64,000 nt of DNA from Adhaeribacter arboris. GTDB taxonomy: Bacteria > Bacteroidota > Bacteroidia > Cytophagales > Hymenobacteraceae. Shown here in pieces: positions 36,111 through 56,103 of the stretch (the first letter of the stretch is position 1; every line of letters starts with the position of its first letter). The position numbers and the translations under genes were made by a program. The notes beneath the pieces are model-generated. The model did no database searches, was not told the origin of the DNA, and saw nothing but the letters and a program-made list of their open reading frames with translations. The stretch is taken from NCBI RefSeq assembly GCF_003023845.1, contig NZ_PYFT01000001.1:5208001-5272000 (forward strand), written 5' to 3'.

Positions 36111-37358
36111 ATGAGAGTACTTTTTCGTGCCTTAAAATTTTTACTATTTGGTTTCCTGTTCTTTATTTCTTTTTTCTCCGGATTGGCGCAGGTTAAAAAG
36201 AAAAAGGCTGTTTTTATTATTGTGGATGGTATTTCGGCCGATGTACTGGAAAAGCAAAATACTCCTAATTTAAAGAAAATTGCGGCGGCCAGCGGGTATA
36301 CCCGGGCGCACGTAGGTGGAGAACGAGGCGGGTATTCCGAAACTCCTACCATTTCGGCGGTGGGTTATAATAGTTTATTAACCGGTACCTGGGTAAACAA
36401 ACATAATGTGTGGGATAATGAAATTGCCGCTCCCAATTATTTTTATCCCACTATTTTCTGCTATTTCGAAACTCAATACCCGGATAAAAAAACCGCTATC
36501 TTTTCTACGTGGCTCGATAACCGCACCAAACTGGTGGGCGAAGGCTTGCCGCAAACCCAAAATATTAAACTAGATTATCATTTCGATGGATTGGAACAGG
36601 ATACCGTAAAATTTCCGCACGATAAAGAAAGCGACTATATTCACCGGATTGACGAACACGTAGCCAACGAAGCTGCCCGTTATATCCGGGCCGAAGCGCC
36701 GGATTTATCCTGGGTGTACCTGGAGTACCCCGATGATATGGGCCATCGCTACGGCGACGGTGAAAAAATGTACCGGGCCATTGAAATGGCCGATGACCAG
36801 ATTGGCCGTATCTGGCAAGCCATTGAACACCGCCAACAGAACTACTCCGAAGATTGGTTAATTGTTATTACCACCGACCACGGCCGCGACAGCCAGGGCA
36901 AAGGCCACGGCGGGCAATCGGACCGCGAACGGACTACCTGGATGGTAACCAACGCGAAAAATCTTAATGCCCGGTTTCAGCAAAACCCCGGCGTGGTAGA
37001 TATTATGCCCAGCCTGGCCCGCTTTCTGAATATTACTATTCCGCCCGAGAATGAAAAAGAAATAGATGGTGTACCTTTTATTGGCAAAATTTCTATTGCG
37101 CAACCCACTGCAGTTTACCACGCCGGCCAAATAGCAGTAAGCTGGCAAGCGCTGGAGTCAAAAGGGAAGGTTAAGATATGGGTAACTACCACTAATAATT
37201 ATAAAACCGGCGGAAAAGACAAATATACCTTATTGAAAGAAGTAGACTTAAAAGACAAAAAAGCAAGCTTAAATGTAAAATTCATACCTTCTGATTATTA
37301 TAAAATAGTGTTGGAAGCGCCGTTGAACACCGTGAATAAGTGGGTAGTAATCAAGTAA
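36111..37358 (+). CDS. Alkaline-phosphatase-superfamily hydrolase (type I phosphodiesterase-like)
   Basis: 415 residues. Signal peptide (ends near GLAQ) and an alkaline-phosphatase-superfamily core. First metal Asp in VFIIVDGIS (about residue 39), a probable nucleophile Ser about 82 in TISAVGYNSLLTGTW (nine residues before TG, where nucleotide pyrophosphatases have Thr), metal ligands in EYPDDMGHRYGD and TTDHGRDSQGKGHGG. A C-terminal beta-rich domain of about 85 residues follows (AVYHAGQIAVSWQAL). Expected to hydrolyse phosphate mono- or diesters, or possibly phosphonoacetate, in the periplasm or outside. The next gene on the opposite strand is a Na/Pi cotransporter, which fits phosphate release and uptake. 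Confidence 0.85.
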   Translation: MRVLFRALKFLLFGFLFFISFFSGLAQVKKKKAVFIIVDGISADVLEKQNTPNLKKIAAASGYTRAHVGGERGGYSETPTISAVGYNSLLTGTWVNKHNVWDNEIAAPNYFYPTIFCYFETQYPDKKTAIFSTWLDNRTKLVGEGLPQTQNIKLDYHFDGLEQDTVKFPHDKESDYIHRIDEHVANEAARYIRAEAPDLSWVYLEYPDDMGHRYGDGEKMYRAIEMADDQIGRIWQAIEHRQQNYSEDWLIVITTDHGRDSQGKGHGGQSDRERTTWMVTNAKNLNARFQQNPGVVDIMPSLARFLNITIPPENEKEIDGVPFIGKISIAQPTAVYHAGQIAVSWQALESKGKVKIWVTTTNNYKTGGKDKYTLLKEVDLKDKKASLNVKFIPSDYYKIVLEAPLNTVNKWVVIK

Positions 37359-41886: not shown

Positions 41887-42462
41887 ATGGAACCAGAACA
41901 AATTAAGAACATTGCCGAAGAAATAATTCAATTGTACGTGCAGCACGGGGCCGATGATTACGTGGGCGAGCCGGTATCACAACTAGAACACATGTCGCAG
42001 TGTGCCCAATTAGCCCAGCAGGAAGGCTACGGAGAAGACGTAATTTTGGCGGCCTTTTTACACGATATTGGGCATATTTGCAGCCAGCAAAAACGCGCCG
42101 AAGAAAGCATGGATGGTTTTGGTGTCATTCGCCACGAAAAAGTAGGCGCCGATTTTTTACGTTCCAAAGGATTCTCGGAGCGGGTGGCGCGCTTAGTGGA
42201 AAGCCACGTGCCCGCCAAGCGGTACCTTACTTTTAAAGACCCGGAATATTACAATCAATTATCCGAAGCCAGTAAGCAAACGCTAGAATTTCAAGGAGGC
42301 CGCATGACCGCTGAAGAGGCTGCCGCTTTCGAAGCCGATGATTTATTTAACCTGAGTATCCGGATGCGCCGCTGGGACGAACTAGGGAAAGAAACTGATC
42401 AGCCGGTAGTAGAGTTAGGTCGTTTTAAAGAAATGTTTATCCGGCACCTGGCAAGTAGATAA
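41887..42462 (+). CDS. phnZ: PhnZ-like HD-domain phosphonate oxygenase (phosphonate-associated HDIG protein)
   Basis: 191 residues. Carries the features of PhnZ, a mixed-valent di-iron oxygenase that cleaves 1-hydroxy-2-aminoethylphosphonate to glycine and phosphate. Substrate-sensing loop DYVGEPVSQLEH (Tyr 25, Glu 28), metal ligands His 35, His 59-Asp 60, His 83, His 107, Asp 164, and phosphonate-binding Lys 111 and Arg 161 in the expected spacing (HDIGH, RHEKVGADFLRSKGFSERV, ESHVPAKRYL, RRWDELGK). The Tyr and Glu distinguish it from ordinary HD phosphohydrolases. The usual partner PhnY is not visible in the window. It opens a cluster with other phosphonate-type genes but is transcribed alone. 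Cytoplasmic. Confidence 0.85.
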   Translation: MEPEQIKNIAEEIIQLYVQHGADDYVGEPVSQLEHMSQCAQLAQQEGYGEDVILAAFLHDIGHICSQQKRAEESMDGFGVIRHEKVGADFLRSKGFSERVARLVESHVPAKRYLTFKDPEYYNQLSEASKQTLEFQGGRMTAEEAAAFEADDLFNLSIRMRRWDELGKETDQPVVELGRFKEMFIRHLASR

Positions 42463-42628
42463 GTAGTTGTTGGTTATTAGTTGTTTGTTGTTCGATAGCT
42501 AAAACGCTTTCCATCCAACTAGTATCACAAATTATACTTCCTTTAATTCTCTTTATACTTATTAAGTACACTGTGAACGAAATAAGTTAATAAAAAAATT
42601 ATTAGTGGAAAGTTCCCCTTTAGAGATA

Positions 42629-42853
42629 GAGCCGTTAAGTTCTATTGTCAAAAGCTGGAATAATGCGAGCAGCTTCGCTCGGGTTGCGCATCGTCCGGCC
42701 TCCCCGAACTACTTCGGGATTTGCAACTGGCCGATAGAAATTTGACTTAATTGCATGTAGAAAGTACTATTGGTTTGCCCGGCCAGAGGCCTCCTGAATA
42801 ATCTTCACGAGCGAAGACGCTCGCGAAAGTAGTATTTTAAGAACGTAACGGCT
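42629..42853. repeat. MITE-like repeat, copy 3 (inverted relative to copies 1 and 2)
   Basis: Terminal inverted repeats GAGCCGTTAAGTTCT (42629-42643) and the reverse complement of 42839-42853 differ at one position. Inside are hairpins shared with the copies at 48574 and 50609: CACGAGCG...CGCTCGCG and GCCCGGCCAGAGGCC. It occupies the gap downstream of phnZ and has no coding sequence. Probably a non-autonomous element or BIME-like repeat. Confidence 0.65.
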
Positions 42854-42978
42854 CTACCCTTTGGAGGAAATAGGCGAAGGGAAATACCTCTAAATTAGTT
42901 CTAATTTTATTTTTTGAAACCTTCACTTACTTTGTTCCCAGAGTACTTAATTTAAAAAAATTATAAGTTTATCTTAAC

Positions 42979-43842
42979 CTACCGTTGTATTCCGGATGAA
43001 GTGAGCGGCACCGGCTGCCACTCGCCATCCAGTAAAACCTGTACTTGCTGGTAACCGGTTTCTAGCAATAGTTCAGCCGCGTAATCAAACTTACCCGCGA
43101 TTTCGCTGGGCTTATGCGCATCTGAATTTATCGTAACCGGAATATTTAATTGCTGCATTTGCGCTAAAATCCAGCGGCCCGGGTAAACCTCCGTGGTTTT
43201 ATTCTGGTACAAACCCCGGGTATTTACTTCGACAATAACGCCGGCAGCGGCAATTTCCCGGAGGGTTTTTACCACTTCTGCCTGGTACCAATCCTCCGTT
43301 TCGGCGAAATAAAACGTGCTGGTATTCTGCATCTTTATCTTATCTAAATGGCCCACTAGAGTGGGGCATTGCTCGCGTACCATTTGGCGGGTTAGTTCGA
43401 AATAACGCGTAACCGCGGCCCGGGTATCTTTTTTAAAAATTTGCTCCCAACCTTCCGCAAATACCGCCGGTTTGTTGTCAATTTCCCAATGGCGGCCATC
43501 CGGTAAAGTATCCACAAAATGCACTGATCCCACGGTGTAATCTAAGTCCGCCGCCTGAATAAATTTACTTTTTGGCCCCATCAATCCCGGAATAAAATCT
43601 ACTTCCAGGCCCGCATAAATTTGAATTTGTGATACATACTGGCTTTGCAAAGCTTTAACCTCGGCTATATAAGCGGGCAGCTTTTCCATTTTCATGCTCC
43701 AGGTTGTCGGGAAGGGTAGTGGCGCGTGCGAGGAAAACCCATAGGCCGTGAATCCTTGGTTAACAGCTTCTTCTACGTAAACAGCGGGCGCATCGGAGCC
43801 ATCGCAGTAAGCACAATGGCTGTGGTAATTCGTCCAGGGCAT
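42979..43842 (-). CDS. PHP-domain phosphatase (histidinol-phosphatase-like)
   Basis: 287 residues, cytoplasmic. The complete set of PHP metal-binding motifs is present: N-terminal YHSHCAYCDG (HxH plus Asp), YGFSSHAPLP, GLEVDF, GSVHFVD, GHLDKI and NSDAHKP. HisJ/HisK-type histidinol phosphatases have this size and pattern, and other PHP proteins act on different phosphoesters. No other his genes are nearby; it lies between the phnZ-like gene and the phosphonate FAD oxidoreductase, 168 bases from the latter and on the same strand. So it may serve either histidine synthesis or phosphonate/phosphoester breakdown; the sequence alone cannot decide. Confidence 0.8.
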   Translation of the reverse strand: MPWTNYHSHCAYCDGSDAPAVYVEEAVNQGFTAYGFSSHAPLPFPTTWSMKMEKLPAYIAEVKALQSQYVSQIQIYAGLEVDFIPGLMGPKSKFIQAADLDYTVGSVHFVDTLPDGRHWEIDNKPAVFAEGWEQIFKKDTRAAVTRYFELTRQMVREQCPTLVGHLDKIKMQNTSTFYFAETEDWYQAEVVKTLREIAAAGVIVEVNTRGLYQNKTTEVYPGRWILAQMQQLNIPVTINSDAHKPSEIAGKFDYAAELLLETGYQQVQVLLDGEWQPVPLTSSGIQR

Positions 43843-44010
43843 TGGTAAATCTGGTTTTTTAAATTAACTTATAAAATTACGGAAATAAGTAGAAGGACAA
43901 AATCAAGTATATACCTGATTTAGGCTGTATATTCTGCGTAAGTTAATTTCGAACAAACATTCACCATAATTAAGTTTAGTGTCTAATATCTTGATAATTG
44001 TGTCTTTTCT

Positions 44011-45171
44011 TTAGTACCCAAGCCTTTGTACGTGGTGCTGGGCAAAACCGGCCGCCGTAGTCATGCCTTTCCCGCCAATACCCGTAACAATGTGAATTTT
44101 TTGGTCGATGACGTGCTCAAAGATTTCCGCTGATTTGGATTGCGAATAATACCCGTTCCAAGTGCGTTTGATGCGCCAATCCGGTAAATGTAAAATTTGC
44201 TGCGCCTCGCGCAATATAGCGGCGTTAATGGTATCTTCTACGCCGTAATCCAGTTCCTGGGTGGCGGTAGTGTCGGCGTATTCGTGCGAGTCACCGATAA
44301 TAATGGACCCATCCAGGGCTTGCTTAAACAAAATATGAATACCCCACTGACGCAAATCTTCCGCAACTTCTGCGGGGTTTAGTTGAGCGTACGACGGACA
44401 GCTTTTAAAAGCGTAGTACCGCCGGATCGATAAACCCGTGAGGATGGAGCCGGGCAAGGCTACTTGCGGCAACGGATAGGTAGCTAGCATTTGCAGCTTA
44501 CAAATTTGCAAATCGCTGGTTTGAAACACCTCCGGGAACAAAAATTTAAAATCGCGGCCGCTGCAAATAATTACCTTGGCCGCGGTATAAACCTGACCAA
44601 AGACATCCCTTACTTCGCAAGAAACATCGTTGAATGTGCAGGCAATTACCGGGGTGGCGGGCCGGTAATCTAATCCTAGCCGGGTTACGAGATATTCCAG
44701 TAACCGATGAATTAAAGTAGCGGGCTCAGCGGTAACTTCCTCCGGAAACAATAAGCCCCCAAAACAATAACTTTCTTTTAAAGCCGGCAAGCGTTGCCGA
44801 CATTGAGCGGCGGTTAGTAATTCGGAGGGGTAACCTACGTTTTGGTACTGCTGATGTTTTTCTTGGAGCACCTGCATTTCCGTTTCTGAAGAAGCTATGT
44901 ACGTGGAGCCATTTTGCCGGATGGTAATATTAAATTCCGCCTGAATGCTTTTGTACGTTTCCAGACTGGCTTTGCCGTAACGGAACCATTCGCCGTCGGC
45001 CATGCCGGAAGGTACAATTTGCCCGAAATTACGAACGGTGGCCTCGGTGGGTCGGGGGTCTTTTTCCAGCAGTAAAACTTTTAAGCCTTTTTGTAAAGCA
45101 AAGTACGCGTGAAAAGCCCCTAATACGCCGCCGCCAATAATAATTAAATCAAAATTTGCTTTACTGCTCAT
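44011..45171 (-). CDS. FAD-dependent oxidoreductase of the phosphonate-associated (TIGR03364-like) type
   Basis: About 386 residues. N-terminal Rossmann FAD site DLIIIGGGVLGAFHAYFALQ, a second family motif EKDPRPTEATVRNFGQIVPSG, and a C-terminal VTGIGGKGMTTAAGFAQHH that closes on the flavin. This DAO-like subfamily is known for gene neighbourhoods with PhnX-like hydrolases and is thought (and for some members shown) to oxidise 2-aminoethylphosphonate or N-methylated forms to phosphonoacetaldehyde. I use ATG 45171 rather than TTG 45189, because a promoter-like element puts the transcript start near 45193. The cupin regulator gene is 106 bases upstream on the same strand and the PhnX-like gene diverges beyond it. 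Confidence 0.82.
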   Translation of the reverse strand: MSSKANFDLIIIGGGVLGAFHAYFALQKGLKVLLLEKDPRPTEATVRNFGQIVPSGMADGEWFRYGKASLETYKSIQAEFNITIRQNGSTYIASSETEMQVLQEKHQQYQNVGYPSELLTAAQCRQRLPALKESYCFGGLLFPEEVTAEPATLIHRLLEYLVTRLGLDYRPATPVIACTFNDVSCEVRDVFGQVYTAAKVIICSGRDFKFLFPEVFQTSDLQICKLQMLATYPLPQVALPGSILTGLSIRRYYAFKSCPSYAQLNPAEVAEDLRQWGIHILFKQALDGSIIIGDSHEYADTTATQELDYGVEDTINAAILREAQQILHLPDWRIKRTWNGYYSQSKSAEIFEHVIDQKIHIVTGIGGKGMTTAAGFAQHHVQRLGY

Positions 45172-45199
45172 ACTAAATACGTCTGTCAATTAAAAAAAT

Positions 45200-45253
45200 G
45201 AAAGGTACTACTGTTTACCATCAGGAAACAATTTGTTTGTTTATTCAATTGTT
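45200..45253 (-). promoter_or_regulatory. Promoter and possible operator for the FAD oxidoreductase gene
   Basis: On the minus strand TTG (45231-45229), 21 bases, then TACCTTTC (45207-45200), one mismatch from the TTG-N17-23-TAnnTTTG consensus. An inverted repeat AACAATT (from 45228) and AATTGTT (ending 45253) overlaps the -33 side and could be an operator for the neighbouring XRE-cupin regulator. Confidence 0.5.
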
Positions 45254-45277
45254 AATTTTGCCTTATTGACTATTAGA

Positions 45278-45856
45278 TTATTCCGTAGAGCGAATCAGGT
45301 AAACTTTAAATAACCGGGCGGGTAAATCAGTTTCGTTTTTAACGGAATGGGGCACAATGCCGTCAAAGTACAGAGTATCGCCTTTTAACAAAGTAATATT
45401 TTCGCCTTTTAACCCGTAAGTTACTTGCCCTTCCAGCACATGAATTAACTCCAGAGCATCCGTCGCAATAGGCTTTCGGTGAGTGCGCGCGTTAATGGCT
45501 ACTTCGTTTACGCGTAAATTAAAACTGGTTAAATTTTGCGAAAGCAAGTATTTGTATATTAATCCTTTAGAATCATTTCGAGGTTCTATTTCTCCGGTTC
45601 CTTCTCTTACCAGTAGGTAGGGCAGTTGGTGGTTGCCGTTCATATTTTTGACCAACACGGCTACGTCTACTTCCAGCGAATCGGCGATGGTCAGGAGCAC
45701 CGGCAGCGAAGGAATGGTCCGGTAATTTTCGATTTTAGAGATCAGGCCCGCCGAAAGATTGCTGCGCCTCGCCAGTTCCCGTAAACTCAATCCTTTCTCT
45801 TTTCTGAGTTGCATAATGCGCAGGCCAATCAAGCTCAATTTGTCGGGTTTCATCAT
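45278..45856 (-). CDS. XRE-family regulator with C-terminal cupin domain
   Basis: 192 residues. An N-terminal helix-turn-helix of the XRE type (residues about 12-65: GLSLRELARRSNLSAGLISKIENYRTIP) and a C-terminal double-stranded beta-helix cupin (about 105-190: ALELIHVLEGQVTYGLKGE, GDTLYFDGIVPHSVKN), the likely effector-sensing part. It is divergent from the PhnX-like gene (83-base gap) and lies just upstream of the FAD oxidoreductase gene. It is thus well placed as the local regulator of the phosphonate genes, with a phosphonate or its product as possible ligand. That link is inferred from position only. Confidence 0.87.
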   Translation of the reverse strand: MMKPDKLSLIGLRIMQLRKEKGLSLRELARRSNLSAGLISKIENYRTIPSLPVLLTIADSLEVDVAVLVKNMNGNHQLPYLLVREGTGEIEPRNDSKGLIYKYLLSQNLTSFNLRVNEVAINARTHRKPIATDALELIHVLEGQVTYGLKGENITLLKGDTLYFDGIVPHSVKNETDLPARLFKVYLIRSTE

Positions 45857-45939
45857 TTAGTAATATAAAAATAACAAAGAGGCAGGAAAATTATACGTAA
45901 ATTTAGTGCATATTAGTAAACATTTTTAAAAAATACAGC
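45857..45939. promoter_or_regulatory. Divergent control region between the regulator and PhnX-like genes
   Basis: Two direct copies of TTAGTAA (45857-45863 and 45913-45919), plus TTTAGTG at 45903-45909, in an AT-rich 83-base gap. These could be half-sites for the cupin regulator. No exact -7 consensus was found for either gene. Confidence 0.35.
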
Positions 45940-46698
45940 ATGGAAACAGTACAATTATTGGTATTAGACATGGCGGGCACTACGGTACAAGATAACAAAG
46001 AAGTAGAAACCTGCTTCGCCGAAGCGGCCCGGCAAACGGGATTACTCGCTTCGGAAGAACGCATATTGGCGGTGCAAGGTATGGCCAAACGAGCCGTCTT
46101 CGAAATGCTCTGGCAAGAACAAACCAACGAACACTCCGCCGCGCTCCAGGATAAAGTGGAACATTCGTACCAGGTATTTCGGTCTATTCTGGAACACCAT
46201 TACCACACCCATTCCGTAAAACCAACGGAGGGCTGTTTAGAATTATTTAGGTTTCTGAAAAAAAATAACATTAAAATTGCTTTAACTACCGGCTTTTACC
46301 GCCAGGTAACCAACATTATTTTAGAAAAATTAGGCTGGCTGAATGGCTTAGATAAAAACTTTATTGGTAATGAGAATTCCTTATTAAATATGTCTATTGC
46401 CAGCGATGAAGTCGAACAAGGCCGCCCCAGTCCTTTCCTAATTCAGAAAGCTATGCGTACCCTTGGTATTACCGATTCTAAAAGAGTGATTAACATTGGT
46501 GATACGCCCTCTGATTTAGCTTCTGGTTTTAACGCGAATTGTGCCGCTAGCTTTGCCGTAACGAATGGTACGCATACCCGGGAGCAATTGCAACAATACC
46601 CGAACGACGGCTTATTTGAGTCCTTAACTGCTTTCCAGCAATATCTAAAAAAGAATGATTGTTTTGTAAAACTGCCCGTTTCCGCCGTAAATTTTTAA
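45940..46698 (+). CDS. PhnX-like phosphonatase (HAD-family C-P bond hydrolase)
   Basis: 252 residues, cytoplasmic. HAD motif 1 is LVLDMAGTTV: nucleophile Asp 10 with the DxAGTT form that sets the phosphonatase group apart from ordinary HAD enzymes. The cap domain has Lys 50 in VQGMAKRAVFEML, in the region of the Schiff-base Lys of phosphonoacetaldehyde hydrolase. Motif 2 is ALTTGFYR; the usual motif-3 Lys is replaced by Arg in EQGRPSPFLIQKAM, as in PhnX; motif 4 is INIGDTPSDLASG. Probably hydrolyses phosphonoacetaldehyde or a close relative to an aldehyde and phosphate. Divergent from the XRE-cupin gene. Whether the substrate is hydroxylated phosphonoacetaldehyde, as proposed for the PhnX-like clade, cannot be told. 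Confidence 0.85.
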   Translation: METVQLLVLDMAGTTVQDNKEVETCFAEAARQTGLLASEERILAVQGMAKRAVFEMLWQEQTNEHSAALQDKVEHSYQVFRSILEHHYHTHSVKPTEGCLELFRFLKKNNIKIALTTGFYRQVTNIILEKLGWLNGLDKNFIGNENSLLNMSIASDEVEQGRPSPFLIQKAMRTLGITDSKRVINIGDTPSDLASGFNANCAASFAVTNGTHTREQLQQYPNDGLFESLTAFQQYLKKNDCFVKLPVSAVNF

Positions 46699-46764
46699 AA
46701 AATCACGCCTCTTCGAGCTTGAGATTTAAATCTCGGCCCCTTATTATCTACTATTTACCGGAAG

Positions 46765-46985
46765 GTATTTTTACCACCCCTGCCCCTCCTAAAATAGGAG
46801 AGGAGCTTTTTACAAATGCCATTTAGCGAGTATCAAGAACCATAATGCTTTTGCGGAGAATCATCCTCTTTTCGCAAGTAAAACTTTGTTGTTTATTATG
46901 GCACGGAAGTAAATTCGCGCCATAGTAAACTTTTGCTTTTACAAAAGAGAAAAGAAACTCCCCTCCTTGGATAAGGAGGGGCGGG
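46765..46985. repeat. Second MITE-like palindromic element
   Basis: Left end CACCCCTGCCCCTCCTAAA (about 46774) and right end with the complement of CACTCCCGCCCCTCCTTAT (ending about 46979) form long imperfect terminal inverted repeats; each end also folds on itself. About 165 bases of unique sequence lie between them. Placed between the convergent PhnX-like and AP-superfamily genes, so it may also end transcription. Confidence 0.5.
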
Positions 46986-47050
46986 AGTGATTGATTCTTT
47001 ATCAAAGCAAACAACATTATATCACCAGCAATCTTTGACAAAGCCTATTT

Positions 47051-48163
47051 TTACCGGTTGGCTCGGATGGGAGCGGAAAATGCCGCCGATACCGGCGCAC
47101 CGGGTTTGGGGTTATTCGTGTAAGAAAGGCCCAGTAGCGTAGCCATCGTACTAGCCACTTGATTTTGGTAGAATTGCCCCGCGGTTTTTACCTCACCCAT
47201 AGCCGGCGTATCCGGACCAATAACGGCTAGCCAGATGGCATCCGCCCCATTTACGTCTTTACCGTGGTCTTTCCAGGCGCCGGCAGCCGCAGCTCCCCGC
47301 CCATGGTCGGTGGTAATTAACAGAGTGGTTTTGTTGCGGTATTGCTCCTCCGTTTGCAAGAAATGCCACAACTGCTGAATAAAAGAATCGGCATTGTTTG
47401 CGGCGTGTAAATAAGCGCCGTACTCGCCCTGGTGGGCAAAATCGTCGGTTTCGTCGAAAGCCATAAATAATACCCGGGGCTTGTTTTTTTTAACATAAGC
47501 CAAAGCGTACTGAAAAGTAAAGGCATCCAGCCGCACTTCGCCTAACGGATTTGGAATACGGGGCATTAATTCGTTCAGGATTTTTTCGGTATCGGTTACG
47601 TTACTGCCGGTAGCGGGCTGCATGCCGGCGCTGACCGGAATGCCACTGCGCTTATCGTTGATGATAAAAGGAAAAACTTCCCAGGAGGAAAATGCGGCTA
47701 CTTTACCGGCAAAAGCGGGCTGCTTGTTTAAGTACTCCAGCACGGTGGTATTAGCATTGTAGTTTTTATCGTTGCTGTTTACCTTTTTATCGGCAAAGCC
47801 GGTTAAAATTTCGTTGTAGCCCGGGTACGAAAACCATTGATCGTTGGTCACGTTTACCTTGTTGTTCAATTTGCGGTTTCCGTAGATCTGGCCGTTCTTG
47901 GCAATTTCGCCCCACAGAAAGGGCATTAACGTTTGCCGCCGTTCCTCCAAGGTATTTTTCGCAAATACTTCGGCTTGCCCGTTCGGGCCTTTAAAAGCTT
48001 TTTGTTGTTTAAATAAAGTAGAATCGGCCCCGTTAAATATTTCTTGCCAGCGCATGCCGTCGAGGGTTACAAGCACGACATTTTCGGTTTTTAATTTTTG
48101 GGCTTTACTGGCGGAGATACCAGTAAGGAGTAATAGTGCAAGTAGATACAGGTGTTTTTTCAT
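47051..48163 (-). CDS. Exported alkaline-phosphatase-superfamily hydrolase
   Basis: 370 residues. Signal peptide (ends near SKAQ). AP-superfamily core: first metal Asp 35 in LVTLDGMRW, probable nucleophile Ser 112 in SYPGYNEILTG, and metal ligands in AFDETDDFAHQGEY, TTDHGRG and WKDHGKD. Related proteins include phosphodiesterases, sulfatases and phosphonoacetate or phosphonate-ester hydrolases; the residues do not decide among them. It follows the susCD pair on the same strand, after a terminator and two structured elements, so it is probably part of the same functional locus. It could trim phosphonate esters or phosphate esters in the periplasm before inner-membrane uptake. Confidence 0.84.
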   Translation of the reverse strand: MKKHLYLLALLLLTGISASKAQKLKTENVVLVTLDGMRWQEIFNGADSTLFKQQKAFKGPNGQAEVFAKNTLEERRQTLMPFLWGEIAKNGQIYGNRKLNNKVNVTNDQWFSYPGYNEILTGFADKKVNSNDKNYNANTTVLEYLNKQPAFAGKVAAFSSWEVFPFIINDKRSGIPVSAGMQPATGSNVTDTEKILNELMPRIPNPLGEVRLDAFTFQYALAYVKKNKPRVLFMAFDETDDFAHQGEYGAYLHAANNADSFIQQLWHFLQTEEQYRNKTTLLITTDHGRGAAAAGAWKDHGKDVNGADAIWLAVIGPDTPAMGEVKTAGQFYQNQVASTMATLLGLSYTNNPKPGAPVSAAFSAPIRANR

Positions 48164-48246
48164 GTTTGAAGGAAATGATTTTTACTGGTAATTTTTGTTG
48201 GCGTAGCTTCGACGGACGCTTTGGTTGCTCAGATATTAACCCTTCT

Positions 48247-48280
48247 GCCCTCCGGGCACCTTCCCTAAAAACAGGGAAGG
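48247..48280. repeat. Two short hairpins upstream of the AP-superfamily gene
   Basis: GCCC-TCC-GGGC (48247-48257) and CCTTCCCT...AGGGAAGG (48259-48266 with 48273-48280) lie side by side about 85-115 bases before the minus-strand start at 48163. They could be part of another repeat or a structured leader. Confidence 0.4.
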
Positions 48281-48573
48281 AGATACAGTTGACGCTGGAA
48301 TGCCCGAAAATTAAAAAACTAAAGACTCGCTGAAACAACGGAACAGGTTAGCGTCCCATTTTGCACCGGGCTAAAGCTGTTTGTTGCATATCTTACTAGT
48401 AGAATTTAATTTTTTTAATTTATTCCCATTGTCATTCAGGAGGAACCTATTTGGCTACAAAGCAAAAAAGTTTTACTCCGTAGTAGCATCTCTTACATCC
48501 CGAAAGTAAAGTAACACTTTTGCAACTTTAACCGGTTAGCTATTTTATCCGGTGAAAAGTCTCCATTCGGAGC

Positions 48574-48752
48574 CGTTCCGTTCTAGTTTATATCGCGAGC
48601 GTCTACGCTCGTGAGAAGTATCGTCCGGCCTCTGGCCGGTAAAATAAAGGCCTGTTTTTTACGGCTCTGTTCATCTGACTGCCCGGCCAGAGGCCTACCA
48701 GATAGTAGCCACGAGGCTTGAGCCTCGCGCCAGCTTAATATTTTTATAGAAC
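48574..48752. repeat. MITE-like repeat, copy 1
   Basis: A 179-base element almost identical to copy 2 at 50609-50786; only about seven bases differ. Hairpins are CGAGCG-TCTA-CGCTCG, CCGGCC-TCT-GGCCGG and CGAGGC-TTGA-GCCTCG, and the ends carry a degenerate inverted repeat GNCGTTNNGTTCTA. It sits downstream of the susD terminator and upstream of the AP-superfamily gene. Non-coding. Confidence 0.8.
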
Positions 48753-48870
48753 ATTACGATCCTACCCTTCGAAGGGAATTAGGGGGAGAACTCTGCGGTT
48801 GAATGTTCCAAATACTAAAGGGAATGAAGAATCTGGCACTTGGCCCATACCGATTCAAATAGCCCATTTA

Positions 48871-48910
48871 AAAAAATACCTGGCTGCTTTCATACAACCA
48901 GGTATTTTTT
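48871..48910 (-). terminator. Terminator of the susCD transcript
   Basis: Perfect 13-bp stem (48871-48883 with 48898-48910, AAAAAATACCTGG) six bases past the susD stop, followed on the minus strand by a T run within the stem end. Confidence 0.85.
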
Positions 48911-48915
48911 AAATT

Positions 48916-50490
48916 TTACTGCAGTAACCACATTACGGCGTCTACGTCGTCTTTCCCGTTGAATTGCCTTTTGATGGCTTCGGTGTAATTGGCGGCGTTG
49001 GTGCTGCGTTCGTTATCGGGGTACTGCCAGCGGAGCGGTAAAGTGGTACGACCGCCGCCGGTGCCGGGTCCGCCGACGTCGAATTTGGGAGTACCGGTGC
49101 GGCGGTGATTATAGAAGGCTTCCCAGCCGGAATTTTGAAAAAAAGCAATGTATTTCTGCGTGAGTACCTGCTCTAGGCCTTGGGCATTATTACCGGCGTA
49201 TTTTACTTTGGGCTGAGCGTAATAATCGGCAAAGTTAAAGGGCAGGGCATACGTATCGTACTCGCCAATTTTACCGTCTTTTTTTAACAAAAACACGCTG
49301 TTGTCGCCTTCTTTAATGCCGTAGAAGCTTTGGGAAGCCTGGATGCCTTTGGTATAATACTCTTCGGCGCTGCCGGGAGCCCAGCCTCGGTTCAATCCTT
49401 CGGCAATGTTAAAACACAACTCGGGGTAACCGATTTGGATAGTGGGTTCGCCGGTGTACGAACCGTAGTAGCGGTAACGGTTAATGAGCGAGTATTGGCC
49501 ATTCTGCACTTTCGTCGACATATCATCCAGCCCTTCGTCGGAAGGAGCTCCCTGGTAGGCCTGGTGATCCAAGGGGCTTAAGCCACCGGCTACTTTGGCC
49601 GGAGCGGGTTCGGCGAACACAAATAACCGGGGATCTTTTAACTCGCGCAACGGCGTGATAATAGCGGCGGTCATGTTGTTACGTAAAGCGGTTTTACCAA
49701 ATTCATCCGGGTTTAAGGGGTATTTATTCACCGACGTATTGTACACGTACTGCATGTTATCGGTGAGCGTATTCATTAAAGGATATTTAGCCGGATCGGC
49801 CAGAATGGCAGCAAACTGCTGTTTAATGTTTAATTCCGGGTCGTTTTCTTTTTTGCTCAGGCTAATTAATACCCGCATTTTGTAGGTATTTACCACTTTC
49901 TGCCATTGCCGTAAATCGTTGTTAAAGTAAATATCGCCGCTTAAGGTATTGCTACCGGCCGCAATAAGCGCGGTTAATTCGGTATTCGCTTCGTCGAGCC
50001 ATTGCAAGGCTTGCAGGTAAACGGCTTTCTGGGTATCATACTTCGGACTCACGTTATCAATGCCTTTCAGCGCATCCGTCAACGGAATGTCGCCTACGCG
50101 CTGGGTCATGTTGACGAAGAAAACCGCCCGGAAAAATTTACCCATGGCCGCGTACGGGTTCACTGCTTCGGCCCCGTTGCGAATGGCTTCTTCTTCCATT
50201 TTGGCCACGTTTTTTAAAGTAAAATAATTTAAATCCGTAGTGGTCCAGGTGTATTCCTGGTTGCTGTAGTAATTGTAGTTACTGGCCCAAAACTGGTTGT
50301 ACTGCTGGGTACTGTTCCAGGCGCCTTCCGACATATCGTTGAGGATGCCGTTAAACACCAGCGAAGCGGGTACCGTAGTGGGCCGGTTCGGATTTTTCTC
50401 CAATTCTTCAAAATCATCGCAGCTGGTGGTTACGAACGCCAAGCTTATAGCGAGCAAACAAAAGAAGGTTTTGGTTATATAGCGTGTCAT
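48916..50490 (-). CDS. SusD/RagB-family outer-membrane lipoprotein
   Basis: 524 residues. Lipoprotein signal with lipobox VTTSC (Cys about 24) followed by the acidic DDFEELEKNPNRPT, then the TPR-rich SusD fold (motifs AAMGKFFRAVFFVNMTQRVGDIPLTDALKG and LCFNIAEGLNRGWAPGSAEEYYTKGIQAS), C-terminal GRTTLPLRWQYPDNERSTNAANY. It resembles the SusD-like_2 branch. It caps the SusC channel and delivers ligand. It is downstream of susC, with a MITE-like repeat in the 346-base gap, and is followed by a strong terminator. Context suggests a phosphonate or phosphonate-bearing ligand rather than a glycan; that is inference. Confidence 0.92.
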   Translation of the reverse strand: MTRYITKTFFCLLAISLAFVTTSCDDFEELEKNPNRPTTVPASLVFNGILNDMSEGAWNSTQQYNQFWASNYNYYSNQEYTWTTTDLNYFTLKNVAKMEEEAIRNGAEAVNPYAAMGKFFRAVFFVNMTQRVGDIPLTDALKGIDNVSPKYDTQKAVYLQALQWLDEANTELTALIAAGSNTLSGDIYFNNDLRQWQKVVNTYKMRVLISLSKKENDPELNIKQQFAAILADPAKYPLMNTLTDNMQYVYNTSVNKYPLNPDEFGKTALRNNMTAAIITPLRELKDPRLFVFAEPAPAKVAGGLSPLDHQAYQGAPSDEGLDDMSTKVQNGQYSLINRYRYYGSYTGEPTIQIGYPELCFNIAEGLNRGWAPGSAEEYYTKGIQASQSFYGIKEGDNSVFLLKKDGKIGEYDTYALPFNFADYYAQPKVKYAGNNAQGLEQVLTQKYIAFFQNSGWEAFYNHRRTGTPKFDVGGPGTGGGRTTLPLRWQYPDNERSTNAANYTEAIKRQFNGKDDVDAVMWLLQ

Positions 50491-50608
50491 TTTTTTAAAT
50501 TTTTAGTAATAATCATTCTTGTTCCGGGCGAGAATAGTAAATCGGCTACCTGAAACTTCCGATACTATCCACTTCAAGTATTTTGTTCTCTTGGAAAGGG
50601 TTTAGGGT

Positions 50609-50786
50609 CGTTCCGTTCTAGTTTATATCGCGAGCGTCTACGCTCGTGAGAAGTATCGTCCGGCCTCTGGCCGGTAGAATAAAGGCCTGTTTTTTACGGC
50701 TCTGTTCATCTGACTGCCCGGCCAGAGGCCTACCAGATGGTAGCCACGAGGCGGGAGCCTCGCGCCATCTTAATTTTTAATAGAAC
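50609..50786. repeat. MITE-like repeat, copy 2
   Basis: 178-base direct copy of the element at 48574, placed between susC and susD. Its last hairpin keeps the stem CGAGGC/GCCTCG while the loop changes from TTGA to GGGA. Non-coding. It must be transcribed if susC and susD share an mRNA, so it may act as an RNA structure there. Confidence 0.8.
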
Positions 50787-50836
50787 TAAACGGCCTACCT
50801 ACCAAGGGGGACTTTTCACTTTGTTTCGAGAATTTC

Positions 50837-53800
50837 CTAAAAAGTAAAATTCAGGTTAATGCCGTAACGTCGGGTAGTCGGCGTTTGCAGCGAGGAGTAG
50901 TTATTGTTGCCGTATTGGTCAATATCCACGTCTTTTTCTTTGGCAAAGTACAGCAGGTTGCGGCCCACCAAGGTAATGCCGGCCTGGCGAATAAAGCTTT
51001 TGCCCAGAATACTAGCGGGTAATGAATAGCCAATGGTTACTTCCCGTAATTTGGCGTAGGTTTTACTAATCAGGTCGCCTTCGTCGATGGAATGATAGCG
51101 GCTGATGTAATCCTGCAAGAAGGTTGGCGTGTTGTTGGCCTTAAACTGCAACTCGCTGTAATTGCTGATTAAACCGGTAACCGGGTCGTATTTTATTTCG
51201 CCGCTGGCTACCTGCACGCCTTCCCCGATCCAGGATTTCACGCCTTTGGTATCTTGTTCGCGAGCCACGCCCATGGCGCCCTCGATAGTAGCAATGTGGC
51301 GGCCCCCACGGTACGTCTGGCGTTTAATGTAATCGACCATCACGCCGCCAACCCGGCCATCAAACTGGAAACCAAAATTTAAGCCTTTGTAGCTAAAACG
51401 GTTGGTTAAACCCCACACCCAATCCGGGTTAGAGTTGCCTAAAAACTGCGGCCGCGGATAAGGAATCGGCCGACCACCCGCATCGTTGATAATCTGGCCG
51501 TCGAACTCGCCTCCTTCTACCCGGGCGTATTTCTGCGAATAATACGCATCGGTACGGTCGCCTACGCGGTAAAAATTATACAGTACATCTAAGCCCGGCG
51601 GTAATTTGGTGTACACTTCTTTGTACGTCGACCAGTTGGCCGTTACGTCCCAGCGGAAACCTTTATCCGTTTGCACCGGGTTGCCCGAGATAGTGGCTTC
51701 CCAACCGTTTTTGCGCGTTTCCACGGCGTTAATCAGCAAAGTATTATAGCCGGAAGTTTCGGAAATGGGTACCTGAAATATTTGCGGACCGTCGTTGTAG
51801 ATAAAGTAGTTGACATCCAAACCTAAACGATTTTGCAGGAAGCGTACGTCCAGGCCGGTTTCGTAATTGGTGCGGCTGAACGGTTTTAAATTCGGGTTAT
51901 TAATGGTGTTGGTGTAATAGCCCGCCACCTGGTTATTATACAATAAAGGAGTGGTATACACCGCGCTGTTCTCGTAAGAAGGGCCTTCGTACGACGATTC
52001 GTACTGTGACCCGTAACTCAACGGGTAAGAACCGGCGGGCGTAGCGCCAATGGTGCGGCGGGTTAAAGCGCCTTTTACATTGGCGTAAGAGCCCCGTAAT
52101 TTTAAAAATGAAATGGCTCGCGGCATCGGAATGACATCCGAAAGCACCGCGCTCAACGCCAAAGAAGGATAGAAATAAGAATTGCTCTTAGCCGGTAAAG
52201 TAGACAAAATATCCTGGCGGCCGGTACCCGATAAAGTTAAAAAGTTGCGGTAGGTTACATCTAATAAAGCATACGCCCCAACGACGCTCATGGGGGCATT
52301 AAAGCTGGTCGCAATGAGCGGATCGCGGGTGTTGCCTAAGTTATAGCCCGAGGGATTGAGCGAAGAAGCCGGTACGTTTAAATAATTCGTCGAAACATAG
52401 CTGGAGTTATACTCAAAATCGCGGTAAGCGCCTCCTACCGAGGCCCGTACGTTAAATTGCGGCGCCACATCTTTGTTAAAAGTCAACAGCACATCGGAGT
52501 TGGTTTCAAATAAATGACGGGTATCTTCGCGGTAATCGCCTTTCGCTTCTTCGCGGCCGTATACCGTGGCCGATTGCGGAAACTTCTCGCTGCGGAATAA
52601 GTCGTAGGTAGTGGCCTGGGTGCGTACGGCTAAATCCAGGAAATCCGTGAACTTGTACTTTAACTGCATGTAGCCGTACACGTCGGTTTTGTAGTGGCTG
52701 CGGAGCCATTCGTGGGTAATAAAATACGGGTTGTTGTAGCGGGTATACTCGGCGTAAATCTGCTGGATGCCTTCTTTGCCGGGCTGCCAATAGTTTTTCA
52801 TGTCGTCGATGTTCCAATCGGCGCCGCCCCAAATGGCAATGTTATAGATCATGCTGTTCGGGCCGTAGTTAACGTCCGGAATGTTGGGCGTATGCTGGCG
52901 GTTAAAGTTAATGTTGGAATCGAAGCGTAGCTTCTTCGAGAAATTATAGCCGGCGGATAAGTTAAAATTAAAAATACCGAGCTGGGTATTGGGCACCAGG
53001 CCGCGCTGGTACGAGTTAGAGGCCGAGAAGCGCAAATCGTATTTATCGTTGCTGGAAGAAACCGCAATGTTGTTCGTAGACAAAATACCGGTCCGGATAA
53101 AACGGCTTAGATTATCTTTGCCACGGGCTACCCAGGGCGTACCTTGCCGCACGCCGTTAATGACCGGGCTATCGTACTGCGGAATCAACTGACCTTCAAA
53201 CTTAGGACCCCAGACATCGTAATCGGCATCGTTCACGCCACCGCCTTTGCCGTCGCCGAAAGCGTATTTGCCGTGGTCGCCGGGGCCGTATAAATCCTGC
53301 ACTTTCGGAATGGCAATAAAACCATTGTCGAACTGCGTAGTAGAATTTACCTCCACCGAAAAGCCGCGTTTGTCTTTGGAGCCGCGTTTGGTAGTAATCA
53401 TAATTACCCCAAACTGCCCGCGGTAGCCGTACAAAGCGGAAGCCGAAGGACCTTTTAACACGGTGTAGGTTTCAATGTCATCGGCGTTAATGTTCCAGGT
53501 GTCGGAGTTAATGGGTACGCCATCCACCACAAATAGCGGCTGGTTGCCCCGCAAAAGCAAGGAGGGCGGTCCTAATAATTCGGCCGAAGCCGCTACCGTT
53601 AAACCGGCTACTTTCCCCACCAGGTTGTTTAAAGGGTTGGGTTCGCGGGCTTTCACCAGGTCGGCGCCTTTTACTTCCTGAGTGGCGTAGCCTACTTTGG
53701 CTTTATCTTTTTCTATACCCAGAGCGGTTACCACTACTTCGTTTAGTTGTTTGGTATCCACGGCTAATCGCACGTCCAGAATGGCCTGGTTGCCCACTTG

Positions 53801-54085
53801 GATTTCTTTCGGCTCAAAACCAATAAACGAAAATACCAGAACGGCATCGCCCGAAGCGGCCTTAATGGAGTATTGCCCGTTAGCATCGGTAACGGAACCG
53901 TTAGTGGTGCCTTTTACCAGAATCGTTACGCCGGGTAGCGGCGTTTCGTCCTGGGCTGAAACCACTTTACCCCGCACCGTCACCTCTTGGGCCAGCACCG
54001 GGACTAAAAAAGCGAAATAAAGCAATAGAACCGGACAGGCAGAATGCAGCAGCCAGCGGGTTTGTTTTTGTAAAAGGTTTTTCAT
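50837..54085 (-). CDS. SusC/RagA-family TonB-linked outer-membrane transporter
   Basis: 1082 residues. Signal peptide (ends PVLAQ), CarboxypepD_reg-like domain (about 33-110: VRGKVVSAQDETPLPGVTI, GQYSIKAASGDAVLVFSFIG), TonB box region LNEVVVTALGIEKDK, plug domain with the SusC signature (LLLRGNQPLFVVDGVPINS; ADDIETYTVLKGPSASALYG), then a long beta-barrel ending GINLNFTF. It forms the channel whose lid is the SusD protein encoded next. No anti-sigma/sigma genes lie nearby, so control probably comes from the local cupin regulator or a phosphate-responsive system. The ligand is inferred from the surrounding phosphonate genes. Confidence 0.93.
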   Translation of the reverse strand: MKNLLQKQTRWLLHSACPVLLLYFAFLVPVLAQEVTVRGKVVSAQDETPLPGVTILVKGTTNGSVTDANGQYSIKAASGDAVLVFSFIGFEPKEIQVGNQAILDVRLAVDTKQLNEVVVTALGIEKDKAKVGYATQEVKGADLVKAREPNPLNNLVGKVAGLTVAASAELLGPPSLLLRGNQPLFVVDGVPINSDTWNINADDIETYTVLKGPSASALYGYRGQFGVIMITTKRGSKDKRGFSVEVNSTTQFDNGFIAIPKVQDLYGPGDHGKYAFGDGKGGGVNDADYDVWGPKFEGQLIPQYDSPVINGVRQGTPWVARGKDNLSRFIRTGILSTNNIAVSSSNDKYDLRFSASNSYQRGLVPNTQLGIFNFNLSAGYNFSKKLRFDSNINFNRQHTPNIPDVNYGPNSMIYNIAIWGGADWNIDDMKNYWQPGKEGIQQIYAEYTRYNNPYFITHEWLRSHYKTDVYGYMQLKYKFTDFLDLAVRTQATTYDLFRSEKFPQSATVYGREEAKGDYREDTRHLFETNSDVLLTFNKDVAPQFNVRASVGGAYRDFEYNSSYVSTNYLNVPASSLNPSGYNLGNTRDPLIATSFNAPMSVVGAYALLDVTYRNFLTLSGTGRQDILSTLPAKSNSYFYPSLALSAVLSDVIPMPRAISFLKLRGSYANVKGALTRRTIGATPAGSYPLSYGSQYESSYEGPSYENSAVYTTPLLYNNQVAGYYTNTINNPNLKPFSRTNYETGLDVRFLQNRLGLDVNYFIYNDGPQIFQVPISETSGYNTLLINAVETRKNGWEATISGNPVQTDKGFRWDVTANWSTYKEVYTKLPPGLDVLYNFYRVGDRTDAYYSQKYARVEGGEFDGQIINDAGGRPIPYPRPQFLGNSNPDWVWGLTNRFSYKGLNFGFQFDGRVGGVMVDYIKRQTYRGGRHIATIEGAMGVAREQDTKGVKSWIGEGVQVASGEIKYDPVTGLISNYSELQFKANNTPTFLQDYISRYHSIDEGDLISKTYAKLREVTIGYSLPASILGKSFIRQAGITLVGRNLLYFAKEKDVDIDQYGNNNYSSLQTPTTRRYGINLNFTF

Positions 54086-54813
54086 TGTTGGCTAATTTTT
54101 AAGTAAAAGCTTGGTAGTGGTAGCGCTCACCGGATAAATAAAAAAATCCATCCGGTTAATTCCGTTAGAAGAAAAACTCACCTTGGAGACGGGGTAAGAA
54201 CAAATTGGAAGAATAAGGCCGGATGAACTAGGTGTTTAAAACCAGTTCCGGGGTTAAGTTTTAAGTAGTTGTTTTTATTTCATAGGGTGTAGTAAAATAG
54301 GTCCGGCAACTGTACGTAAATTTTGCATTAGTAGGGACAGGTGCATTTATTCGATTTTATTGCGATGCTCTTATCCTGATTAAAGCTACTCCGTAATTAA
54401 CGGAGGTAATTCTAGTAATGTAACTGGTTACGAAGCCGTTACACTTTCGCGCGGGTAGTGCATTAGATCTTTAACCCCCCTCCGGATGTTCCTGGGTAGG
54501 TTTTCTATTAGGCCCTCCCTTTTAGTGGCGACTATACCGCAAAGGTGCTAGTTTTTCTGCTTTGGCTCCTAAATGGGTAGGTTATATAATTGTTACGAAA
54601 TGGTTAAATTATGTTGACTAAAGGTATATTTTCTCCGGCAGGATTTCTAGTAAATGGAACGGTAGTAGAGAAGAATTACAAAAAATTTAAAAATTATAAC
54701 TTCTTAGCACGTTAATTATCAGCTTTTTAAAAATATTATCTTTCAAGCAATTCTGTTTGCCCGGATAAAGAATAAAATACAAAGTGTTGAGCAATGGTAA
54801 ACAGAAAACTGAC
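54086..54813. other. Intergenic stretch upstream of susC
   Basis: AT-rich region expected to hold the susC promoter. A near match to the -7 box (complement of TAAAGGTA) is present near 54620, too far for a simple leader. No gene, clear hairpin or repeat copy recognised. Confidence 0.35.
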
Positions 54814-56103
54814 TTAAGCAGGCTGGGATTTCGCGGAGTGGCTTTCCTGGGTGCGGTAATAAATAAAGGCGGTACAGGCCGTACCTACGGCCATAGCGGC
54901 CAAGGCCAGAAAGGCGGCATTCCAGCCTACGTACTCGGCTAAAAAACCCGTTAACCATAATGCCAAGGTGCCCCCCAAATACCCTACCGCATCCACTAAA
55001 CCGCCGGCGGTAGCGGCGCCTTTAGGCCCACCGACATCCAACGACATGGCCCCGGCCAGGAATGAATACGGACCTAACAGCAATAAACCGGCTAAGGAAA
55101 TAAAAATCAGTGGTAAAATCTGACCGGTAAACCCAACGGCCATAAAGCCCAGCACGACCGTTAAAAGCATACCGGCTCCCGCAATAAGTAAACCCCGCAC
55201 GCCTTTCATCCAGGCATCCGAAAGGTAACCGGCCACCAGAATAGAAATCATGCCGAAAGCTGAGTACAAAGCACTGTATTGCGAAGCTAATCCCTCCGAT
55301 TGATTGGTAGTTTCGAAGAGGTACGTAGGCAGCCAAAAATTAAGCGCTTCCCGGATAGCGGTAAGGCCGAAGGACATGAGCAAAATGAGGATAAAAGATA
55401 AATTTTTAAAATACGGCGCTAATAACTCGCGTAAACTAGCCGGAGGAGCCAATTGATTGTCCGATTGGGCATGCAGGTTTTTCGGATTAGGTGGGGGCGG
55501 CACCAGACCCACATTTTCCGGGGAATTTTTTAAAAAAAGAACATTAATCATTGCTATTACCACTAACAAACCGGCGGCTATGTAAAATAAACCGCGCCAA
55601 CCCATTCCCAAATTTAAAAAATGGCCCAGCAGTAACTTGGCCACAATGTCGCCGACCAAAAAGCTAAGACTCAAAAAGCTCATGATTTTGCCGTAGCTCT
55701 TGTACGAAAACCAGTTCGCGGTAATTTTTAATAATCCGCCCCAACCCATGGATTGAATCAGCCGGTTGAAAGACCAAACCGCGCCGAAAAACAACACCCC
55801 TTTGCCGAAGCCAAAGAAAATCGTGGCCAGCACCGAGCCCAACATGCCCAGAATAAAGACTTTTTTACCCCCGATAAAGTCGCCCAGTACCCCGTTTATT
55901 ACTTTGCCCACCGCGTAAAATACCACGCCCAGCGCGGCAATTTGGCCCATGACCACTTTGTTTACCCCCACCGCCGCGTACTCCTGAATAATTAGAGGGG
56001 CGGCAATGGCCAGATTACTGCGGCATAAATAATACCCGCTGTAGCCCACAAATAAGCAAATAGCGGTGGAAATTTGCCACGGCTTACTACTTTTATTTTT
56101 CAA
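54814..56103 (-). CDS. OPA-family (GlpT/UhpT-like) MFS transporter
   Basis: 429 residues, about 12 membrane segments. The N-terminal signature FVGYSGYYLCRSNLAIAAP and GWGGLLKITANWF match the organophosphate:phosphate antiporter branch of the MFS, in which the conserved Arg of the first helix binds the phosphate group. Start is TTG 56103: an in-frame stop lies three codons upstream and AAGGAAT sits just before it as a Shine-Dalgarno. It follows the same strand as susC but 728 bases away, so it is probably a separate transcript. In this context it could import a phosphonate or phosphoester in exchange for phosphate, in place of a PhnCDE ABC transporter. Specificity is inferred. Confidence 0.85.
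   Translation of the reverse strand: MKNKSSKPWQISTAICLFVGYSGYYLCRSNLAIAAPLIIQEYAAVGVNKVVMGQIAALGVVFYAVGKVINGVLGDFIGGKKVFILGMLGSVLATIFFGFGKGVLFFGAVWSFNRLIQSMGWGGLLKITANWFSYKSYGKIMSFLSLSFLVGDIVAKLLLGHFLNLGMGWRGLFYIAAGLLVVIAMINVLFLKNSPENVGLVPPPPNPKNLHAQSDNQLAPPASLRELLAPYFKNLSFILILLMSFGLTAIREALNFWLPTYLFETTNQSEGLASQYSALYSAFGMISILVAGYLSDAWMKGVRGLLIAGAGMLLTVVLGFMAVGFTGQILPLIFISLAGLLLLGPYSFLAGAMSLDVGGPKGAATAGGLVDAVGYLGGTLALWLTGFLAEYVGWNAAFLALAAMAVGTACTAFIYYRTQESHSAKSQPA

Follow-up and report, generated by a model that had tools for sequence, protein, structure and literature searches.

The genes described here lie in a window of 64,000 nucleotides (the whole stretch of DNA analyzed) from the 7.25-Mb genome of Adhaeribacter arboris, a member of the Hymenobacteraceae (Cytophagales) in the phylum Bacteroidota (assembly GCF_003023845.1, contig NZ_PYFT01000001.1, positions 5,208,001 to 5,272,000). 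An initial annotation had proposed a phosphonate utilization locus built on a SusCD/OPA uptake system at positions 41887..56103 of the window. All nine open reading frames (ORFs) of this interval were confirmed at their given positions by an ORF check of the window, and the profile scores, obtained with curated models and their own cut-offs (TIGR/NCBIfam, Pfam gathering scores), support the annotated nine gene families standing side by side. The features of the locus are as follows:

41887..42462, plus strand: PhnZ-like HD-domain di-iron oxygenase (TIGR03276, 221.1 bits, cut-off of 214.6 passed)
42979..43842, minus strand: PHP-domain phosphatase of the HisJ family, an optional part (TIGR01856, 162.2 bits against a cut-off of 90.2)
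44011..45189, minus strand: PbfD-type FAD amine oxidase, type A (TIGR03364, 384.7 bits, cut-off of 285.1 passed)
45278..45856, minus strand: XRE-cupin regulator (HTH_3, 48.7 bits; Cupin_2, 41.5 bits)
45894..45921, minus strand: operator-like element in the divergent XRE/PhnX intergenic region, conserved in a sister genome (locus L013) and weakly in locus L032
45940..46698, plus strand: PhnX-like HAD hydrolase with the phosphonatase-type residues D10, A12, and K50 (TIGR03351, 162.3 bits)
47051..48163, minus strand: exported alkaline-phosphatase-superfamily hydrolase, a predicted periplasmic phosphono/phosphodiesterase (PF01663, 28.9 bits, cut-off 23)
48916..50490, minus strand: SusD-like lipoprotein, a predicted surface ligand-binding lid (PF12771, 207.7 bits against a gathering score of 27)
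50837..54085, minus strand: SusC-like TonB-dependent outer-membrane transporter (TIGR04056, 501.9 bits, cut-off of 368.25 passed)
54313..54333, minus strand: operator-like element, a gapped copy about 230 bp upstream of susC, recognized by its similarity to the element at 45894..45921
54814..56103, minus strand: OPA/GlpT-type MFS carrier, a predicted aminophosphonate (AepP-like) permease (TIGR00881, 183.3 bits, below the cut-off of 407.75)

The association of this type of SusD with PbfD was assessed in an order-wide test, not selected on linkage, that covered 390 genomes of the order, with TIGR03364 matches taken at E<=1e-40, up to three SusD candidates scored per genome, and the line for the window's SusD subfamily set at 322 bits after the scores had been seen. 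PbfD was found in 122 of these genomes (121 above cut-off) and the SusD subfamily, by this threshold, in 83; both were present in 79 genomes, SusD alone in 4, PbfD alone in 43, and neither in 264 (Fisher test, 1.6e-45, a P value that overstates the evidence because the genomes share ancestry). Of the 79 genomes with both genes, 53 have them within a distance of 15 kb, so the linkage of susCD with phosphonate enzymes expected for related genomes is borne out, SusCD being a common though not obligatory component.

We further compared PbfD-centered loci, for which 113 of 126 listed places were taken; five fragments or short contigs and eight ordinary places, including all three of genus g100, were left out. 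The stretches, which are not independent of one another, measured 20 kb (eight of them up to 40 kb), and a gene missing from a 20-kb stretch may still be present in the genome. Using a line at 250 bits drawn after the scores were seen, PbfD was divided into type A (61 loci) and type B (52 loci), with one of each in genomes G257 and G320. Sequence clusters that recur over 141 stretches comprise PbfD, the PhnX-like hydrolase, SusC, SusD, DUF5690, PhnZ, the XRE-cupin regulator, and a series of exported phosphoesterases. Among the PbfD-centered loci, PhnX-like genes were present in 102, at least one of the recurrent exported phosphoesterases in 85, XRE-cupin relatives in 54, and relatives of the PHP phosphatase in 7. 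A SusC and SusD pair occurred in 57 of the 113 loci, spread over 22 of 36 genera and six families; by PbfD type, it was found in 39 of 61 type A loci, to which the window belongs, and in 18 of 52 type B loci, and the window's own SusC subfamily in 38 and 5 of these, respectively. The looser count of any SusC (71/113) was set aside in favor of the pair since it also took in fragments and TonB-dependent receptors of other kinds. Another 80 named loci, for which PbfD was the sole search criterion, contained the SusC and SusD pair in 24 cases, DUF5690 in 56, and a PhnX-like gene in 68; those with SusCD include Hymenobacter, Spirosoma, Flavihumibacter, and some Flavobacterium, and many Flavobacterium loci have no SusCD in reach. 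SusCD being absent from many PbfD loci, we regard it as an add-on to a wider core, common but not obligatory.

Because 43 SusC genes were found in the host genome at E<=1e-60, any SusC would be expected by chance in about 14% of 20-kb stretches around a random gene. The SusC of the locus is the lowest-scoring of the 43 listed, and eight of the other 42 regions, taken from the upper part of the list, gave only weak matches of 24 to 42 bits (the PbfD profile at 24 bits in L241; the NPP profile at 33 and 42 bits in L237). A chance neighborhood was judged unlikely given these weak matches, the order-wide co-occurrence, and the frequency of the SusCD pair against the 14% expectation. In a tree of 75 of the 84 members of the SusD cluster, 44 of the 59 rows on the window's branch lie near a phosphonate enzyme and three near an esterase only. 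The linkage label changes 6 times on the tree as compared with 13.9 times in shuffles, which suggests that the linkage is old, with some losses; clade I of the tree was drawn solely from PbfD-centered loci and is linked by construction. The closest solved relative of the locus SusD is 3mx3 (228.4 bits), and its lipobox is followed, by eye, by acidic residues. In the sister genome, the susD gene (L013, G177:C1:558842-560412) is broken by an in-frame TAA.

The gene directly after SusD, on the same strand, encodes a phosphoesterase in 38 of 60 cases and PhnZ in 7 more, compared with a phosphoesterase in 6 of 20 cases in loci picked away from PbfD or in PbfD-free genomes. The 38 enzymes represent five sequence clusters and three Pfam families: alkaline-phosphatase-superfamily enzyme (15), metallophosphoesterase (10), phosphocholine-specific phospholipase C (5), PF04185-type (4), and NPP (4). 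This position lends support to the proposal that the cargo is cut in the periplasm, which stands as a prediction. The phospholipase C genes follow SusD in L040-L043 and L049, and the one tested, from L042, scored 771.5 bits with TIGR03396; their position hints at lipid headgroup substrates. The esterase of the locus itself had no significant match in a sequence search of the PDB. For its structural model (pLDDT 75), PafA was the best match, followed by NPP, ENPP7, sulfatases, and 2w8s at about equal level; the top rows in Foldseek's own ranking were YejM and LtaS.

At the inner membrane, the locus carrier scored 107.1, 104.8, and 126.3 bits with the GlpT, PgtP, and UhpC profiles, respectively; as all named OPA profiles fell below cut-off, we consider it OPA-like but of no named subfamily. 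In an alignment of nine such carriers, R45, K80, R269, Y38, Y42, Y76, and Y393 of GlpT are kept in all nine, and H165 and K46 are not. We take R45, K80, and R269 to be the phosphate-binding residues. The pattern of kept and lost residues matches that reported for AepP, a GlpT-related OPA-family permease for 2-aminoethylphosphonate (AEP) from Pseudomonas putida (PMC8316502), a system overlooked by the initial statement that phosphonate genes usually come with an ABC transporter. ABC-type uptake was rejected for this locus, there being no ABC transporter among its nine genes; an ABC cluster (cluster 41) adjoins PbfD in four other loci (L083, L084, L090, L097).

The OPA carrier is found in 9 of the 113 PbfD loci and DUF5690 (PF18943) in 68, and the two never occur in the same locus (0/113). 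DUF5690 was detected in 119 of the 390 genomes, namely in 99 of the 122 with PbfD and 20 of the 268 others, and in none of the nine OPA genomes, the window's included. It often adjoins PbfD, for example at L185:19064-20380 and L071:8144-9463. A comparison of the DUF5690 and OPA profiles gave a probability of 8% across 377 columns, as against 0.2% across 22 columns for a control comparison with PbfD, and in this weak full-length alignment the basic residues invariant in 69 of 69 DUF5690 proteins include two arginines and one lysine that align with the phosphate-binding trio of the OPA carriers. A profile search of the PDB with DUF5690 returned no match, and the open-licence papers of PubMed Central make no mention of it. 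We predict that DUF5690 is an aminophosphonate carrier.

Among the cytoplasmic enzymes, PbfD is predicted to oxidize N-methyl-AEP and AEP to phosphonoacetaldehyde. Conversion of N-methyl-AEP to phosphonoacetaldehyde has been demonstrated for the enzymes of A. baumannii and M. fucicola (PMC10590968), where PbfD2 has kcat/KM values of 3400 M-1 s-1 for AEP and 13500 M-1 s-1 for N-methyl-AEP, and PbfD1, which that paper ties to TIGR03364, of 130 and 2300 M-1 s-1, respectively (Table 2). Since PbfD1 is weak on AEP, free AEP may not be the chief substrate, and from these kinetics N-methyl-AEP is the safer assignment. According to a review (PMC10574752), PbfD of the first sort may replace PhnW. In line with the PhnW-free layout, PhnW is above cut-off in 3 of the 390 genomes, and its profile (TIGR03301) has no match in the host genome at E<=1e-60.

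The next enzyme was initially annotated as PhnX-like, a label that agrees with its key phosphonatase residues but not with the cut-offs of the two named families, both of which it misses. We take the residue roles in PhnX to be a nucleophilic aspartate, an alanine that replaces the second aspartate, and a Schiff-base lysine. The aspartate and the lysine are kept in all 102 PhnX-like proteins and the alanine of the DxAGTT motif (Ala14) in 101 of 102, with K50 of the locus protein aligned to K53 of PhnX. For its structural model (pLDDT 92), PhnX 1rql is the best PDB match by E-value (1.9e-15), with other HAD hydrolases close behind at similar TM-scores.

The PhnZ-like protein is the sole TIGR03276 match in the host genome, and it is closer to PhnZ (4mlm, 164.8 bits) than to TmpB (6npa, 119.9 bits) among solved structures. 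PhnZ occurs in 57 of the 113 PbfD loci and PbfA in 20 (the one member tested matches its model at 725 bits, cut-off 525), with no locus containing both; among the 80 named loci, L179 holds PhnZ together with a weak 61-bit PbfA match. No PbfA above cut-off was found in the host genome. PbfA converts (R)-hydroxy-AEP to phosphonoacetaldehyde (PMC12366243), and the alternation of the two genes suggests that PhnZ here meets hydroxy-AEP. The PhnZ-like oxygenase likely cleaves (R)-1-hydroxy-2-aminoethylphosphonate or its N-methyl relative. Two PhyH genes lie elsewhere in the genome, unlinked to the locus.

A 28-base block of the XRE/PhnX gap is conserved in the sister genome, and its gapped copy upstream of susC ranks second among the sites of the 64-kb window (score 32, next 27), a score reached by 5 of 3000 shuffles. 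Exact matches to its 11-base core occur at these two sites only; with one mismatch allowed, 5 matches were found against 4.7 expected, which is not above chance, and a k-mer search for a shared operator returned mainly A/T-rich matches. In the sister genome, no copy of the element was found ahead of susC, and joint regulation is therefore just a lead.

Based on the observed gene identities, recurrent linkage, catalytic residues, and lack of a PhnW match in the host genome, we consider it probable that the locus is an aminophosphonate utilization system built like a polysaccharide utilization locus, for which the substrates, the ester, the direction of transport, and the regulation are inferred. 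AEP and N-methyl-AEP in nature are largely bound to lipids and glycans, and to our knowledge the known phosphonate uptake systems handle free small molecules; lipid- or glycan-linked AEP is the putative substrate. In the proposed mechanism, SusC and SusD would import, with TonB, an aminophosphonate in ester linkage with a lipid, a glycan, or some other carrier, and the exported hydrolase of the alkaline phosphatase superfamily would open this linkage in the periplasm. Free AEP, N-methyl-AEP, or hydroxy-AEP would then reach the cytoplasm through the OPA carrier, probably in exchange for phosphate. There, PbfD would convert AEP or its N-methyl form to phosphonoacetaldehyde, whose C-P bond would be hydrolyzed by the PhnX-like enzyme via a Schiff base with release of phosphate, and PhnZ would split hydroxy-AEP directly. 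The XRE-cupin protein may control at least the enzyme genes and perhaps also susC. Of the initially proposed composition, the recurrence of the enzymes, regulator, SusCD, esterase, and carrier together stands, with SusCD as an often present yet optional part.

Several observations weigh against the proposed aminophosphonate system. SusCD is optional, both in the PbfD-centered loci (57/113) and in the named ones (24/80). SusD has no PbfD within 15 kb in 26 of the 79 genomes that carry both, some of them on short contigs, and 12 of the 59 rows on the window's SusD branch are near neither a phosphonate enzyme nor an esterase, including an inferred Dyadobacter group (genus g58) in which the subfamily is unlinked to PbfD. 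The esterase fold also suits sulfatases. Among the enzymes, the TIGR03364-linked PbfD1 is poor on AEP (PMC10590968); the PhnX-like protein remains below both cut-offs (TIGR03351, 162.3 against 218.9 bits; TIGR01422, 95.0 against 220), and His56 of PhnX is replaced in all 102 relatives (V in 53, A in 47, G in 2); and PhnZ needs a hydroxylated substrate, yet no PhnY-type gene is present in the locus. Finally, PbfA and OPA were each seen in two genera of the order, so that the swaps represent few events.

These observations also bear on three other explanations. One is a general organophosphorus system of the PUS kind, with the same overall anatomy and a cargo that is broader or different: phosphodiesters, for example the headgroups of phospholipids, would enter through SusCD, and the phosphonate enzymes would be a side branch of an island for phosphate starvation. 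It would account for the esterase type varying between clusters, phosphocholine-specific phospholipase C included, while the C-P enzymes stay, and it has a precedent in the PusCD of Flavobacterium, which adjoin phosphomonoesterases, phosphodiesterases, and phosphonate enzymes and respond to low phosphate (PMC8115612). Yet the C-P enzymes are the constant part, with a PhnX-like gene in nearly all PbfD loci (102/113), and the window's SusD subfamily is mostly confined to PbfD genomes (79/83), which makes this explanation rather unlikely in our judgment, if a serious contender. Alternatively, the type A PbfD and PhnX-like pair may act on a related but different substrate within the same layout, given that type A is distinct from the remaining TIGR03364/TIGR03351 proteins (type B), as would suit the lower TIGR03364 score of type A PbfD (384.7 bits here, up to 482.9 elsewhere), the sub-threshold PhnX-like protein, and the coexistence of both types in G257 and G320; this we find doubtful, the catalytic lysine and aspartate being common to both types in all 102 PhnX-like proteins.

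The last explanation treats SusCD as a glycan or peptide importer that is merely the neighbor of a phosphonate operon. The unlinked SusD members in the inferred Dyadobacter and the many PbfD loci without SusCD speak for it, as does a SusCD pair of Maribacter, adjacent to genes of the alkaline phosphatase, FAD oxidoreductase, and phosphonatase-like types, that showed the strongest up-regulation in cells grown on laminarin and was taken by the authors as a laminarin transporter (PMC11345257), which weighs against an aminophosphonate cargo as well. However, the Maribacter pair is also expressed on glucose and has no same-direction neighbor encoding a carbohydrate-active enzyme (CAZyme) (PMC11345257); in our own reading, its expression would suit the phosphorus demand during growth on sugar, the Maribacter locus being known to us from that paper. 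A domain scan of the nine locus proteins found no CAZyme domain, and the linkage of SusCD to PbfD is well over the 14% expected, so we hold a glycan or peptide cargo to be very unlikely.

Returning to the aminophosphonate utilization system, its parts resemble several known systems. Like PUSI-IV/PusCD of Flavobacterium (PMC8115612), it places SusCD-type complexes beside phosphoesterases, and it has the gene content of PUS, with SusCD next to phosphoesterases and phosphonate enzymes; PusCD are defined by their low-phosphate response in Flavobacterium, whereas the locus combines PbfD, PhnX-like, PhnZ, and OPA genes in Cytophagales and is described here from its gene content. With the AEP clusters of the phnWX and phnWAY type that carry pbfA, pbfC, and pbfD, it shares the logic of PbfD, PbfA, and a phosphonatase acting via phosphonoacetaldehyde, and clusters with phnX and without phnW have already been reported (PMC10590968); the present type differs in its PhnX-like enzyme, which is not PhnX by score, in the added SusCD and exported esterase, and in the alternation of PhnZ and PbfA. 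Compared with the PhnY-PhnZ and TmpA-TmpB pathways, its HD di-iron oxygenase is closest to PhnZ but has no 2-oxoglutarate dioxygenase partner in the locus. Its carrier is a GlpT relative that, like AepP (PMC8316502), keeps the phosphate-binding residues and not others; AepP is a 2-AEP permease, and the likeness was drawn from its description via the GlpT alignment. From polysaccharide utilization loci, which share the assembly of SusCD, exported hydrolase, inner-membrane carrier, and regulator, it differs by the absence of a CAZyme next to SusCD and by a predicted cargo of phosphonate ester. The initial claim that no locus of this exact composition had been described needs a caveat, since a paper on Flavobacterium mentions PusCD complexes next to enzymes of phosphonate degradation (PMC8115612); no open-licence paper in PubMed Central joins '2-aminoethylphosphonate' and 'SusD'. 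The locus is a better-defined variant of the Flavobacterium PusCD kind. It carries that kind over to Cytophagales and comes with a pathway that lacks PhnW and with two types of carrier, and the putative uptake of esterified aminophosphonate is what would make it new.

An additional hydrolase lies outside the interval of the initial annotation:

36111..37358, plus strand: NPP-type exported hydrolase, a possible accessory esterase (PF01663, 76.4 bits)

Its sequence cluster also adjoins PhnX-like genes in Hymenobacter loci. Between this gene and the locus are a Na/Pi-cotransporter-like membrane protein, named by eye (37586-38542, minus strand), and, immediately upstream of PhnZ, a choice-of-anchor I protein with a type IX secretion system sorting domain (38838-41609, plus strand). 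A G/C-rich inverted repeat that resembles a terminator by eye is located at about 56380-56410, between the OPA gene and the next gene.

More broadly, and tentatively, these loci may represent a dedicated Bacteroidota-wide route for esterified aminophosphonates (phosphonolipids or phosphonoglycans), with capture by SusCD, interchangeable periplasmic esterases, entry through an OPA carrier or the new carrier family DUF5690, and breakdown by PbfD and a divergent phosphonatase without PhnW; we consider this generalization possible rather than probable. If a SusCD-fed locus of this kind is real, the missing step of bacterial access to bound phosphonate would become testable in culturable Hymenobacter, Spirosoma, and Flavobacterium, and DUF5690 would gain a function. 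It would also call for caution in assigning glycan import to each SusCD pair, an assignment that may have been made wrongly in Maribacter.

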